This document shows positions 9,175-29,149 of a stretch of 34,691 nt of DNA, piece by piece. Positions within the stretch are counted from its first letter, which is position 1. Every line of letters starts with the position of its first letter. This DNA is from Rhodothermales bacterium (lineage in GTDB: Bacteria > Bacteroidota > Rhodothermia > Rhodothermales > JABDKH01): contig JABDKH010000277.1 of the NCBI GenBank assembly GCA_013002345.1, forward strand, positions 1-34,691, read 5' to 3'. Position numbers and translations under genes: made by a program. Below the pieces are notes generated by a model, which worked only from the letters and a program-made list of their open reading frames with translations, made no database searches and was not told the origin of the DNA.

Positions 9175-9525
9175 TCACTCGATCGCGGCGCTCCGTGCCG
9201 TGCACTCTTCGCAGGGACACATCGACCTGAGCCTCTCCCACGTGTAGATGCCGGTGTTGTGACCGTCGTCCCATGCAAGGCGCAGCGCATAGTTGCCGAC
9301 CGGCTCAAGCCTCAGATTCTCCCATCTCATCAAGCCAGGAAGCTGGAATATCTCGGGATCGGGGAGCCGACCCATGTTCTCGTGCCCCACGCACGTCGCG
9401 CACGGACAGGCTCGCCTCAATCCGTCAAGCGGAAAGACGGTTTCGTGGTCGTCGCTCCAGGTGATCGTCAGGTCCTGGGCTTCGGAATCGATGACGACAC
9501 GGCGGGCGGTCGGGTGTTGGCGCAT
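9175..9525 (-). CDS. DUF971 (GBBH-like N-domain) protein
   Basis: A 116-aa protein of the DUF971 family, related to the zinc-binding N-terminal domain of gamma-butyrobetaine hydroxylase. Visible family marks are WSDDHETVFPLDGLR near the N-terminus, the CPCATC cluster (C40, C42, C45), the LEPVGNYALRLAWDDGHNTGIY core with H89, and WERLR. Three cysteines plus the histidine match the known zinc ligands. A second CPCEEC cluster (C103, C105, C108) lies at the C-terminus, so two metal sites are possible. The family occurs alone or fused to scaffold and dioxygenase proteins; a role in Fe-S cluster handling has been proposed, but function is unproven. The start ATG has no strong Shine-Dalgarno. The gene is convergent with the Rad50-like gene, with stops only 3 nt apart. 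Confidence 0.85.
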   Translation of the reverse strand: MRQHPTARRVVIDSEAQDLTITWSDDHETVFPLDGLRRACPCATCVGHENMGRLPDPEIFQLPGLMRWENLRLEPVGNYALRLAWDDGHNTGIYTWERLRSMCPCEECTARSAAIE

Positions 9526-9768
9526 GCGGTGCTGCGAAATTACGGTTTGTGTTCAAGCTGATGCGGTCGTTCGAACATGACGTAACGACCCGGTACCTGA
9601 CCGGGACCGACCACAATAGTAGACACGACTGAAGGTGTTATTCGTTCCTTTTGAGGCTGAAACACGCGTTACGCATGCAGGTCGGCTCGTGGACTGCGAT
9701 TTGTAATGGGTGTACACAGGACTAACGCCGGGACTGCGATCAACGTGAATCAAAGAAAGGTGAACATC
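9526..9768. promoter_or_regulatory. Divergent intergenic region with dyad and direct repeats
   Basis: This 243-nt gap separates the DUF971 gene (leftward) and the lipoprotein gene (rightward), so it must hold both promoters. It contains a 17-bp inverted repeat at 9589-9605 (CCCGGT, 5-nt spacer, ACCGGG). It also has two exact copies of GGACTGCGAT at 9691-9700 and 9731-9740, exactly 40 bp apart, between the dyad and the lipoprotein start. I could not identify a convincing Bacteroidota -7/-33 promoter. No ORF with support lies inside. Confidence 0.45.
9756..9763 (+). promoter_or_regulatory. Shine-Dalgarno of lipoprotein gene
   Basis: A purine-rich AAAGGTGA-type sequence ends about 5-7 nt before the ATG at 9769. 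It decides the start: the longer in-frame ATG at 9706 has no such site and would put 21 polar residues before the signal peptide. Confidence 0.65.
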
Positions 9769-10299
9769 ATGCGCACTGCAATAACAAGTATACTGGGCGC
9801 GCTCGCGATGGTCCTCATGGTGGGCTGTGAATCAACGATAGTTGAGCAAGGGCCTCCTGGGCCGCGCGGGCTGGACGGACGGGACGGCAACGCAAACGTC
9901 TTCTCTCTGAACTTCGACTTCACGATGGCGGATGCCATCATCAACGGCAAGGTAGCGTCTGCTCAGTTTGACGTTCCCGGTATCACGCCGAGCGTCGTCG
10001 ACGAAGGAGCTGTTCTTGTGTTCTTTCGCGAGCAGGGGACATGGACTGCGCTGCCCTACACCTTCGGATTCGATAATCCTGACATCCAAGCTGTGGATTT
10101 CCTCGTGACGTTCGGATACGGATACGACGACGGCTTTCTGGAGGTCTTCTACGAGGCATCCGCAGAAGGCGTGAGTCTGGAAGACATGCCGGATCGGGAG
10201 ATGAAGGCGGTTGTGATCGACGGATTCCCCATGTCCAAGGCCGGCATCGACCTGACGGACTACGAGGCGGTCAAGGCCTTCTTGCACCTGGCTGACTAG
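9769..10299 (+). CDS. Small lipoprotein with collagen-like Gly-X-Y stretch
   Basis: A 176-aa predicted lipoprotein of unknown function. The N-terminus is a type II signal peptide: R2, a hydrophobic core of residues 4-18, and a lipobox-like LMVGC with C20 as lipidated cysteine. Immediately after the anchor, glycines at 28, 31, 34, 37 and 40 form five Gly-X-Y triplets (GPPGPRGLDGRDG), a short collagen-like stalk. The remaining ~130 residues look like a compact globular domain rich in aromatic and acidic residues. Similar small lipoproteins with a Gly-X-Y linker are common in Bacteroidota, without known function. A stem followed by TTTT about 45 nt downstream is a likely terminator, so the gene appears monocistronic. 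I see no enzyme motif. Confidence 0.75.
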   Translation: MRTAITSILGALAMVLMVGCESTIVEQGPPGPRGLDGRDGNANVFSLNFDFTMADAIINGKVASAQFDVPGITPSVVDEGAVLVFFREQGTWTALPYTFGFDNPDIQAVDFLVTFGYGYDDGFLEVFYEASAEGVSLEDMPDREMKAVVIDGFPMSKAGIDLTDYEAVKAFLHLAD

Positions 10300-10344
10300 T
10301 CTGACCGGAACTGAATAGTCGCTGGCCCCCCTTCAGCGACTTGC

Positions 10345-10392
10345 TGCGGCGCACTGGATTGTCTCTGACATGACGGTGCGCCGCACTCTTTT
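10345..10392 (+). terminator. Probable intrinsic terminator after the lipoprotein gene
   Basis: A perfect 10-bp stem, TGCGGCGCAC (10345-10354) with GTGCGCCGCA (10376-10385), encloses a 21-nt loop and is followed by CTCTTTT. The loop is large and the T-tract short, so this is moderate rather than strong. Confidence 0.55.
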
Positions 10393-10501
10393 GCCGCTAA
10401 ATTCGGCGCAGGGCAGAGGCTACGAGGTCCTTTCCCGTCGTTCCCGGCTCCCGAATGTCAATGCCCTCGAAATCGCCCTGCCTGGCGCTCACGCGCCCCT
10501 C

Positions 10502-10523
10502 CGGCATCTCAAATGCCGTTTTT
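10502..10523 (+). terminator. Terminator-like hairpin with T5 inside the leader
   Basis: Stem CGGCAT (10502-10507) and ATGCCG (10513-10518) with loop CTCAA, directly followed by TTTTT (10519-10523). It lies 80 nt before the small ORF and about 110 nt past the preceding terminator. It would end a short transcript there, as an attenuator or the 3' end of a small RNA. Confidence 0.5.
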
Positions 10524-10604
10524 CGACTGGTCTTCGGACCTATAGAAATACCTCGTCTCGCCGATAACACCATCAGTTGTCGCGCAGACCCAGACGAGAT
10601 AAGC

Positions 10605-10793
10605 ATGACCAACGAGAACTATGGCCACGAGAGTAGTACGCAACGTGGCAATTCACCGCACTTGCGCCGCTTTCTGTCGACCTTTTTCAGGACGGCTCTC
10701 GACGAATATCGAGAAGCGGGATGCCCGTTCGGAAAACACGTTGACGCCATGCTGATCTGGTTCGAGTACAACCAGAAGACGACCGACAACTAG
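10605..10793 (+). CDS. Unknown 62-aa protein
   Basis: A short ORF that I do not recognise. The product starts with a polar stretch (MTNENYGHESS), then a basic-aromatic helix-like segment (LRRFLSTFFRTALDEY), a single cysteine in AGCPFGKHVDAML and an aromatic tail WFEYNQKTTDN. It has no signal peptide or membrane segment. The frame is open back to 10455, but I chose the ATG at 10605 because the upstream part spans the hairpins. Support comes from context: it is the only sensible ORF between a structured leader and a strong intrinsic terminator 43 nt after its stop. Alternatives are a non-coding transcript or chance. Confidence 0.5.
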   Translation: MTNENYGHESSTQRGNSPHLRRFLSTFFRTALDEYREAGCPFGKHVDAMLIWFEYNQKTTDN

Positions 10794-10835
10794 TCAATCC
10801 GAATAGAGTCCACCTTGTGCTATGACGGGTGTTGT

Positions 10836-10874
10836 GAAGCCCCGGCCGATTGTTCGGTCGGGGCTTCTTTCTTT
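10836..10874 (+). terminator. Strong intrinsic terminator
   Basis: A near-perfect 14-bp stem: GAAGCCCCG (10836-10844) pairs with CGGGGCTTC (10859-10867). It continues through a G-T wobble and CCGA/TCGG to a 4-nt loop (10850-10853) and is followed by TTTCTTT. It sits 43 nt after the 62-aa ORF and faces the end of the convergent envelope operon; the T-tract exists only in the + orientation. Confidence 0.9.
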
Positions 10875-10906
10875 ACTCAGAATGGTGCCAGGGATTTGTT
10901 CGAAGC

Positions 10907-10929
10907 GGCTGGGCCGCGAATTCGCAGCC
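10907..10929. repeat. Inverted repeat with embedded 10-bp palindrome at operon end
   Basis: GGCTG (10907-10911) pairs with CAGCC (10925-10929), and between them lies the palindrome GCGAATTCGC (10916-10925). It is 26-48 nt past the last stop of the leftward operon (10955), where a 3' end would be expected, but has no T-tract on that strand. Confidence 0.4.
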
Positions 10930-10954
10930 ACGCTACTCGACGATCGCACCAGAC

Positions 10955-12193
10955 TCAGCGCGTGACAATGAGTTTTAGAACGTGCGACGTCCCGCTACTG
11001 GACGTTGTCCGCACGAAATAAACACCGCTGCCGAGTTCGTCGGTTGGAAGGATGTGAGTCCCGCCTGATTGAAGAGACAATCTGGCATATCGCCTCCGAC
11101 CAAGCACATCAAACACCTCGATCAGCAGAGCGACCGGATCGTCGGCCCGGAGAGTCAGCTGCCCTCCGGAATGCACCGGATTTGGGTACAGGGCGGTCTC
11201 TTGCGATCCGCGCCGGGGAACAGCCGGCACGTCAATCCCAACCGGGGAGGGTCGGGCCAGGCGTCCCATGACGGGCAGATGGTCGGACGTTGTGAAGACA
11301 TAAGCGGGGTCCGACAGCAACTCATTCAGCGGAGCCTGACTGCCTGACTTGAACACCGGAAAGACCTCGTTGGTAATCACGATGTGGTCGATAGGAGATC
11401 CACTCCGACATGAGTTGTCGTTGCCGCACCACGTGTTCGTGTTGTCGTCGTGAAATGTGCGGGTCACGGTTAGATAGCCGGCCTCATCGCTTACGAAGTT
11501 CGCGTACGGTGACGGAAGGCCGCCGCGGATGGATCCCTCAAGAAGATCGTTGTAGTCACCCAGGATGACTACAGGATCGTCAAAGAGACTGGAAAAATCG
11601 ATGTGATTTTTGAGATAGCCCGAGGCACGAACCCGTCTTTCGTAGGATGACTGGTCATCGAAGGCTTTCATGTGAATCGTAATGAAAGTGACCGTCATGG
11701 CGGTGTCGGGCAGACTGATCCTGGCCCGGAGAAGAAACGGAGGTCTGCCGGCGAAATCAGAATCGAATTGCGTCAGTATTTCCTGGACAGACAACGCGCT
11801 AACAATGTCGGACTTGAAGATGTAGCCCACTCGAAGACTGGAAGGCGTTGGCGCAAGACGCCCCTCGTATCCCGCTCCCACCTCGTTCACAAGATCGTTG
11901 AAGGCAGACTCATCGGCGATCTCCTGCACGGCCCACAGGTCGATCTGGGATTCGCGAATGATCGTCGCCGCATTCGTTAGCTGACGCGCCTCGTTGGACG
12001 GCCCGCCGCCGGTATTCCCGAACTGCTCAATGTTCCAGGTGGCGAACTCAAAAGCTGCTTCCGTGCCCTTGTCGGGTACCGTCTGAGCTGCGCTCGCGAT
12101 TGCGGTCGCAGTCGCCAGAAGAATCGTGATACACAGAATTACCAGCCGGGAGATGCGGCGCCGCTGGGGCAGATCGTGGGGCTGGCTACTCAA
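10955..12193 (-). CDS. T9SS-secreted endonuclease/exonuclease/phosphatase (EEP) enzyme
   Basis: A 412-aa exported hydrolase. Residues 1-36 are a signal peptide (RRRISR then a hydrophobic core). Residues 48-312 form an EEP (DNase I-like) domain: WNIEQF (53-58), WAVQE with E91, IHMKA (~173), GDYND (212-216), PIDH (267-270) and the catalytic SDHLP (303-307). A cysteine pair (C256, C262) may form a disulfide. The C-terminus (~333-412) is a T9SS type A sorting domain: ALYPNP, VFDVLGRRR, GSGVYFVR. Substrate cannot be told; the superfamily cuts DNA, RNA, phospholipids or inositol phosphates. The start is TTG at 12193: an in-frame TAA lies four codons upstream and no ATG or GTG precedes the signal peptide. 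It overlaps the upstream stop by 8 nt, so coupled translation is likely. Confidence 0.85.
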   Translation of the reverse strand: MSSQPHDLPQRRRISRLVILCITILLATATAIASAAQTVPDKGTEAAFEFATWNIEQFGNTGGGPSNEARQLTNAATIIRESQIDLWAVQEIADESAFNDLVNEVGAGYEGRLAPTPSSLRVGYIFKSDIVSALSVQEILTQFDSDFAGRPPFLLRARISLPDTAMTVTFITIHMKAFDDQSSYERRVRASGYLKNHIDFSSLFDDPVVILGDYNDLLEGSIRGGLPSPYANFVSDEAGYLTVTRTFHDDNTNTWCGNDNSCRSGSPIDHIVITNEVFPVFKSGSQAPLNELLSDPAYVFTTSDHLPVMGRLARPSPVGIDVPAVPRRGSQETALYPNPVHSGGQLTLRADDPVALLIEVFDVLGRRRYARLSLQSGGTHILPTDELGSGVYFVRTTSSSGTSHVLKLIVTR

Positions 12194-27677: not shown

Positions 27678-27838
27678 GAGGGAATAGGGGCTTTTGTTCC
27701 GAATTCGTGCGCCGATACTGAGACCAGATTGATCATGTTCTGACGGTCCGGCACGCCAGTTGGCAGACGCTTCACGCTTTGGCGCGAAGTCCGACAAATG
27801 ACGCCTGCCGCCGTCTCCAACACCCATCCCAAAGTGCG

Positions 27839-29149
27839 ATGCAGCAGCAGCCGGATAGAGAGCAGATTAGTGGAGCCGTTTCGGCAGCCGAACTTCGAGA
27901 ACGAATTGTTCAGCTGGAGCGAGAAGTAGCGGAGCTTCGCAAGTCGAGAGATGAAGCTGAGCAGCTCAGCAACATGAAGTCGGCTGTTCTCACGAATCTT
28001 TCCCACGAGATTCGCACGCCACTGGCGGCGATTGTTGGCTTCGCGTCGATCCTCCAGGAAGAGCTCACAGATCGGCATCAGAAATTCCTGGACTTCATCG
28101 AGCGCAGCGGCAAGCGGCTGATGGACGCCCTGAACTCGATCCTCAACCTGTCAATGTTGGAGGAAGGGAACTACAGACTGCGATCCGAGGTGGTGGACGT
28201 CGTTCAACAGATCGAGGAAGAGATCTCCGGACTCAAGCGAACGGCTTCGGACAAACACCTTGAACTTCGAGTCCGGTACGCGACAGACGTGATTATGGCG
28301 ACGATCGATCGTACAGCCCTCGATCGCGTCGTGCACAATTTGCTCGAGAACGCAATTCGATTCACCGACACGGGTTCGGTGGAAATGGATGTGGTACCGA
28401 CCGGGACTTCGCTCGAGCTGAGAATCACGGATACGGGACATGGCGTGCGGCCAGAGTTCCAACCGCTGATGTTTGACGCATTTGCGCAGGAGGCAGACTC
28501 TGCCCACAGTTACGAAGGCGTCGGGCTGGGCCTGACCATAACGAAGCGGCTCGTAGACCTCATGGGAGGGACTATCGAGGTCGCAAGCGCCATCGGGAAA
28601 GGAAGCACGTTCACTGTGATGATCCCCGATGCCATTCAGTCGCCGACCGCAGCCGATACGGTAATCGGGAATTCCGAGGCTGAGGTCGTAGAGTCCGATG
28701 TAACGGATGCGGTTGCTGATCGTCGGGTGCCGAAAGTCACCACCCCCGACGTCACATCCGACGAGTCCGTCGCGAAGCCGAGCGTCATGGCGGTCGAGGA
28801 CAACCCCGACATGCTCATACTGCTGCAGCACCTTCTGAGCAGCCGCTGCGAGGTGTCGACGGCAAGCAACGGCCGGACCGCACTCGAACTCGCGCGCGCG
28901 AACAACTTCGACGCCATCCTGATGGACATCAATCTCGGCGAAGACGAGACGGGTGTCGACGTCATGCTCAAGATTCGAGAAATCGCCGGCTACCGCGAGA
29001 CACCGATTGTGGCAGTGACGGCATATGCTCTTCCGGGTGACCGCGAGCGATTCCTGCAGGCTGGATTCGACGGGTATATCGGCAAGCCCTTCACGAAGCA
29101 ACAGCTGTTCCGCATGATGGACCAGGTGCTCGCGAAATCGTCGGCCTGA
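27839..29149 (+). CDS. Soluble hybrid histidine kinase-receiver
   Basis: A 436-aa cytoplasmic hybrid kinase without membrane segments or a PAS/GAF sensor. Residues ~15-45 are a coiled coil (LRERIVQLEREVAELRKSRD). The H-box SHEIRTPL has H56, and HATPase_c shows NLLENAIRFTD (~168), DTGHGV (~198) and VGLGLTI (~228). A ~50-aa acidic linker leads to a receiver with E320-D321, phosphoacceptor D363 in LMDINLGED, T394 and K416. The receiver is strongly alike to that of the membrane hybrid kinase upstream: both have AVTAYALPGD and AGFDGY followed by KPF. Sensing must come through the coiled coil or a partner. I chose ATG 27839 over TTG 27779 because the extension is low-complexity and unsupported; no Shine-Dalgarno is visible for either. 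The stop abuts the glpD stop with no spacer. Confidence 0.87.
   Translation: MQQQPDREQISGAVSAAELRERIVQLEREVAELRKSRDEAEQLSNMKSAVLTNLSHEIRTPLAAIVGFASILQEELTDRHQKFLDFIERSGKRLMDALNSILNLSMLEEGNYRLRSEVVDVVQQIEEEISGLKRTASDKHLELRVRYATDVIMATIDRTALDRVVHNLLENAIRFTDTGSVEMDVVPTGTSLELRITDTGHGVRPEFQPLMFDAFAQEADSAHSYEGVGLGLTITKRLVDLMGGTIEVASAIGKGSTFTVMIPDAIQSPTAADTVIGNSEAEVVESDVTDAVADRRVPKVTTPDVTSDESVAKPSVMAVEDNPDMLILLQHLLSSRCEVSTASNGRTALELARANNFDAILMDINLGEDETGVDVMLKIREIAGYRETPIVAVTAYALPGDRERFLQAGFDGYIGKPFTKQQLFRMMDQVLAKSSA

Follow-up and report, generated by a model that had tools for sequence, protein, structure and literature searches.

The open reading frame at 10605–10793 (+) of the DNA analysed here, a 34,691-nucleotide window from a Rhodothermales bacterium, is by its sequence conservation a real gene for a 62-residue protein, and it is very likely that it forms a one-gene unit driven by a sigma-28 promoter. 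The small gene is best labelled a new member of the sigma-28 regulon. The predicted order of the unit is a sigma-28 promoter at 10541–10567, about 31 nt of untranslated RNA, the gene itself and an intrinsic terminator at 10836–10875. A first-pass annotation had described the same segment as a regulated small transcript with a structured RNA leader; the conserved promoter element was missed by it, and regulation is best explained by this sigma-28-type promoter.

The small gene and its boundaries

The 62-residue match spans 10605–10790 and is followed by a stop codon. Homologues with about 40% to 94% identity were found in other genomes: all five same-family genomes carry one (82–94% identity), and a homologue was found in 39 of 60 genomes at E ≤ 1 (own genome included) and in 30 of the 60 at E ≤ 1e-5. 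Loci L031–L034 were left out as copies of L002, L006, L004 and L005, respectively. A profile of the small protein matched 26 of 395 genomes sampled across the phylum, 25 of them belonging to the same order; the lone match outside the order is doubtful (E 8e-4, internal stop). Named records bearing a homologue are those of Rhodothermia, Rhodothermales and Bacteroidetes MAGs. Comparison of the two closest loci gave a dN of 0.042 and a dS of 1.67, and this low dN relative to dS indicates purifying selection on a protein-coding gene at 10605–10793. Much of one order shares the gene, and the selection on it is strong. The first-pass annotation was right to single out the 62-codon frame, and conservation in relatives, the lack of which it had named as counting against its reading, was found; its description of the frame as an orphan does not hold, since the gene is shared between families of the order.

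A longer in-frame ORF starting at 10455 (112 aa) was rejected as the start of the gene, because conservation of the protein begins at the methionine at 10605 and because the upstream in-frame ATGs are unstable among L003–L006: in these forward-strand same-family loci, L004 and L005 have such an ATG at other places and L003 and L006 have none.

The upstream neighbour (9772–10299, +) encodes a putative lipoprotein that contains a collagen-like GPPGPRGLDGRDG stretch and has no Pfam match; 15 of 30 loci, some of which are shortened by contig ends, have a homologue of it immediately before the small gene. About 45 nt past its stop at 10299 starts a stem (10345–10385) with 19-nt arms, 79% complementary and 3 nt apart, which folds at a z of −5.5 relative to shuffles and is followed by CTCTTTT. 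It is best read as the intrinsic terminator (10345–10392, +) of the lipoprotein gene. Both terminator-like stems of the first-pass annotation are present, and this one is above chance; the other, a hairpin at 10502–10518 followed by TTTTT, is no more than chance. A terminator scan of 9700–11600 found three candidates, two of them overlapping, versus 1.0 ± 1.0 expected by chance. At the 3′ end, what had been called a textbook terminator was borne out: the intrinsic terminator of the small gene (10836–10875, +) has a 14-bp stem at 10836–10867 followed by TTTCTTT (−28.8 kcal/mol), and a hairpin with a T-run stands 3′ of the stop codon in all six same-family loci, with differing sequences. Next to it is a convergent gene (10955–12193, −) for a predicted secreted endonuclease/exonuclease/phosphatase (PF03372, E 2e-11; a Por_Secre_tail match is just below the cut-off), and 14 of 30 loci, some again shortened by contig ends, have a homologue of this nuclease gene downstream. 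The idea of a self-contained regulated unit thus survives in that the small gene is bounded by a terminator and probably regulated, while the first stem belongs to the upstream gene. Elsewhere in the window, a GBBH-like_N domain (E 2e-25) was recognised in the 116-aa product of 9175–9525 (−).

The predicted promoter element and its link to FliA

Alignment of the same-family loci revealed only two invariant blocks upstream of the gene, CTATAG and GCCGAT, 14 nt apart. In the window they belong to a predicted sigma-28 (FliA/WhiG) promoter at 10541–10567 (+), composed of TATAG (10541–10545), N14 and GCCGATAA (10560–10567), which can also be read as TATA-N15-GCCGATAA. The flagellar sigma-28 consensus is given as TAAA at −35 and GCCGATAA at −10 in PMC8325347, and E. 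coli FliA sites, for example that of tar, as TAAA-N15-GCCGATAA in PMC4183435. The −10 box of the window is an exact match to the published box, and the 15-nt gap equals that of the E. coli sites. The −35 of the window, TATA, has one mismatch to TAAA, and many relatives have TTTA; the TATAG of the own-family sites is a weaker −35. Within the same-family loci the first seven letters of the −10 box are kept save for one change in L002, and the eighth varies. The RNA is predicted to start near 10574, 7 nt after the GCCGATA box, which would give a 5′ untranslated region of about 31 nt (10574–10604, +); predicted lengths in the six same-family loci are 25–34 nt.

To avoid circularity, the promoter matrix was trained solely on flagellin promoters of the order. 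The element was present at 14 of 30 flagellin loci examined and absent from the other 16, and the training set was picked from the 14: of thirteen candidates, L135 was dropped for its weak −35, which left 12 for the matrix, and L123 was excluded as a near-copy of L119. With p values taken from first-order Markov shuffles (100 each), this matrix detected the element within 150 nt upstream of the small gene at 27 of 30 loci (p ≤ 0.03). The three misses were L002 (p 0.12), L003 (p 0.09) and L030 (p 0.64), the last of which comes from G042, a genome without FliA. The window's own element scored 14.4 (p 0.02). A second site at 27692–27718 (+), TTTTG-N14-GCCGATAC, had the highest score in the window (14.7) and precedes an ORF for a hybrid histidine kinase (27779–29149).

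A FliA/WhiG-type sigma factor is encoded in this genome (TIGR02479, 200 bits; cut-off 189.6). Its 97%-complete assembly yielded neither FlhA nor flagellin, and the bacterium, although it has FliA, seems to lack flagella. Among 60 genomes, FlhA was found in 27 and flagellin likewise in 27. Genomes were counted as FliA-positive at 140 bits or more with TIGR02479, primary sigma factors reaching 137, except that G002 was counted on a 128-bit fragment at a contig end; there were 41 FliA-positive genomes on this count and 29 above the curated cut-off. In the co-occurrence table, compiled by hand for each genome, 28 genomes had both the small gene and FliA, 2 the gene only, 13 FliA only and 17 neither (Fisher p 5e-5); the corresponding numbers for FlhA were 20, 10, 7 and 23 (p 0.0016), both tests ignoring phylogeny. 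With the exception of G058, described below, the element follows FliA as well: G042, G048 and G409 have no FliA and keep the homologue, and the element is missing (p 0.62–0.93), while it is present in G378 and G382, both FliA-positive and outside the training set.

A strict pattern search gave 64 matches versus 36 in the reversed control for FliA-positive genomes, and 3 versus 22 for the remaining genomes, with the control imperfectly matched. Several of these 67 matches fall within ORFs or precede no recognisable feature, and probably arose by chance. This genome has five strict matches. One is that of the small gene; the others stand before a secreted-looking protein with no Pfam match, a DUF6588 protein, a sugar nucleotidyltransferase and an operon of STAS, HATPase and response-regulator-phosphatase genes. 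At least eight genomes (G000, G004, G022, G026, G032, G046, G052 and G058) have the element ahead of this STAS operon. On contig C141 of G000 (L110:3893–5962), STAS, HATPase and response-regulator/SpoIIE-phosphatase genes lie downstream of a sigma-28-like element, and the DUF6588 gene of this genome (G000, locus L038) has the element, as does a similar gene at locus L155 in G001 (matched by eye). Polymerase bearing the FliA/WhiG-type sigma factor would be expected to transcribe the small gene together with a small regulon, which here probably also includes the DUF6588 protein and the partner-switch operon for a STAS protein, a HATPase and a response-regulator phosphatase; the small gene would then be expressed when FliA is active.

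The product and alternative readings of the unit

Pfam and NCBIfam searches with 24 family members gave no meaningful match, and the protein is best labelled as a member of an undescribed small-protein family, without a match to any described one. Residues M1, Y35, P41, F42, G43, L50 and W52 are invariant across the family, in which a face, YxxAGxPFG-x5-MLxWFE, and a terminal -TTxN are conserved. The structure model (mean pLDDT 75.6, pTM 0.52) has helices at residues 18–37 and 46–57. Foldseek comparison of the model with the PDB found nothing of weight (best E 3.2), and a FliM fragment, the single PDB chain matched by the profile (E 1.6), was taken as a chance match. The C-terminal half also occurs in a second set of more distant proteins, some of which have an extended N-terminal part and likewise end in -TTxN. 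Second-copy proteins at L100, L101, L102, L105, L107 and L221–L223 have this half and this end in common with the family, but their longer N-terminal part looks coiled-coil-like by eye, and the promoter element is absent from most of these loci.

The protein is probably cytosolic and folded as a helical hairpin. On the two-helix model it may bind a partner protein through the conserved face and the -TTxN end, and could thereby regulate motility or surface behaviour, or serve there as a small adaptor. Although an anti-sigma function comes to mind first, we tentatively prefer the role of an adaptor or effector, because FlgM-like genes coexist with the small gene and homologues outlive FliA. The place of the gene in the sigma-28 regulon is much firmer than this role: gene conservation, the promoter element, its link to FliA and the terminator were shown computationally.

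That the small protein is instead an anti-sigma or feedback regulator, binding FliA and doing the work of FlgM, is unlikely. Such a regulator would agree with the FliA-type promoter, with a gene that tracks FliA better than flhA by the above tests (phylogeny ignored), with the Pfam FlgM model being found in just 2 of 60 genomes, and with the small helical protein of the model. However, FlgM-like proteins, some of them weak matches, are encoded near fliA (G002–G005) or near flagellin (G006 and G015) in genomes where the small gene is present too; FlgM models do not match the small protein, nor does the FlgM sequence profile match any of the 24 family members; homologues persist in the FliA-less G042, G048, G409 and G058; and 13 FliA-positive genomes are without the small gene.

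It is more improbable still that a different group-3 sigma factor, rather than FliA, recognises the element. The −35 does depart from TAAA, and five genomes of family f4 (G008, G040, G046, G357 and G382) have two FliA-like sigma factors each. In G058, no FliA match was found above the level of primary sigma factors, yet near-consensus elements are retained at the small gene (L015) and at the STAS operon (L225), possibly as a result of recent FliA loss or an assembly gap. But the same element precedes flagellin and, in G032, a fliS-like gene (named by eye), and it is gone where FliA is gone in G042, G048 and G409.

The least probable reading, and a very improbable one, is that of the first-pass annotation, in which an attenuator or other RNA leader, or a small RNA at 10393–10523, controls the ORF: the 216-nt leader before the ATG as a whole folds better than shuffles (z −2.49) and several hairpins exist, but an Rfam search of the window gave no match, sequence identity of same-family loci at −215 to −75 is 35–43% versus 73–82% in the ORF, and a scan of 9700–11600 found no sigma-70-type promoter. 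Covariation, which had been proposed as a check, was absent, RNAalifold giving 0 consensus pairs over 10505–10640 for the six sequences of the window and five same-family loci; the alignment begins at 10505, and 10393–10504, which lies outside it, is unconserved in sequence. The UUCG hairpin (GGTC-TTCG-GACC, 10529–10540) exists and adjoins the promoter element, and it is not conserved in the same-family loci. The 7-bp pairing CTCGTCT/AGACGAG, thought to hide the start region, also has its arms, extended to 10549–10558 and 10592–10601, but its region folds no better than chance (z −0.79), and neither this pairing nor the hairpins in the middle of the segment are conserved. One arm sits between the promoter boxes and so would not be transcribed, the predicted start near 10574 being downstream of this arm and of the supposed leader. 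The "structured leader" is not a unit, and the segment is very probably no RNA-leader switch.

Implications and comparison with known systems

A speculative RNA-switch reading is thus replaced by a testable sigma-28 gene, and the order gains a promoter model for its flagellar sigma factor. The sigma-28 reading also ties an undescribed small-protein family to FliA even without flagella, and the task of FliA in the absence of flagella becomes a testable question in this group. Our searches found no literature on sigma-28 in Salinibacter, or on sigma-28 together with a small protein in Bacteroidetes. More speculatively, and with low probability, FliA may have been retained after the loss of flagella in this lineage to direct a small new regulon, with the order-specific helical-hairpin protein as its core output, a small regulator that couples sigma-28 activity to a partner-switch pathway or to surface behaviour.

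The small protein resembles FlgM in being a small helical protein under a sigma-28-type promoter, but differs from it in having no profile match, in coexisting with FlgM-like genes and in persisting without FliA. The unit as a whole is similar to the sigma-28 class-3 genes of E. coli, such as fliC, flgMN and ycgR, as these are presented in PMC4183435 and PMC8325347: the −10 box and the 15-nt gap are identical, the unit is single and short, a FliA homologue is present in the genome, and the element precedes flagellin in relatives. It differs from the consensus sites in its −35, where TAAA is replaced by TATA(G) and, in many relatives, by TTTA(A/G), and from the E. coli case in that the product belongs to no described family and the genome is without FlhA and flagellin. 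In this last respect it is closer to WhiG of Streptomyces and Rubrobacter, for which PMC8325347 describes a flagellar-type sigma factor and promoter kept outside flagellar synthesis, and to sigma-28 of Chlamydia, described as having a flagellar-type sigma regulon without flagella. Unlike these systems as described, the present one belongs to a different phylum, and its element stands at a small-protein gene and at a STAS/HATPase/phosphatase operon.
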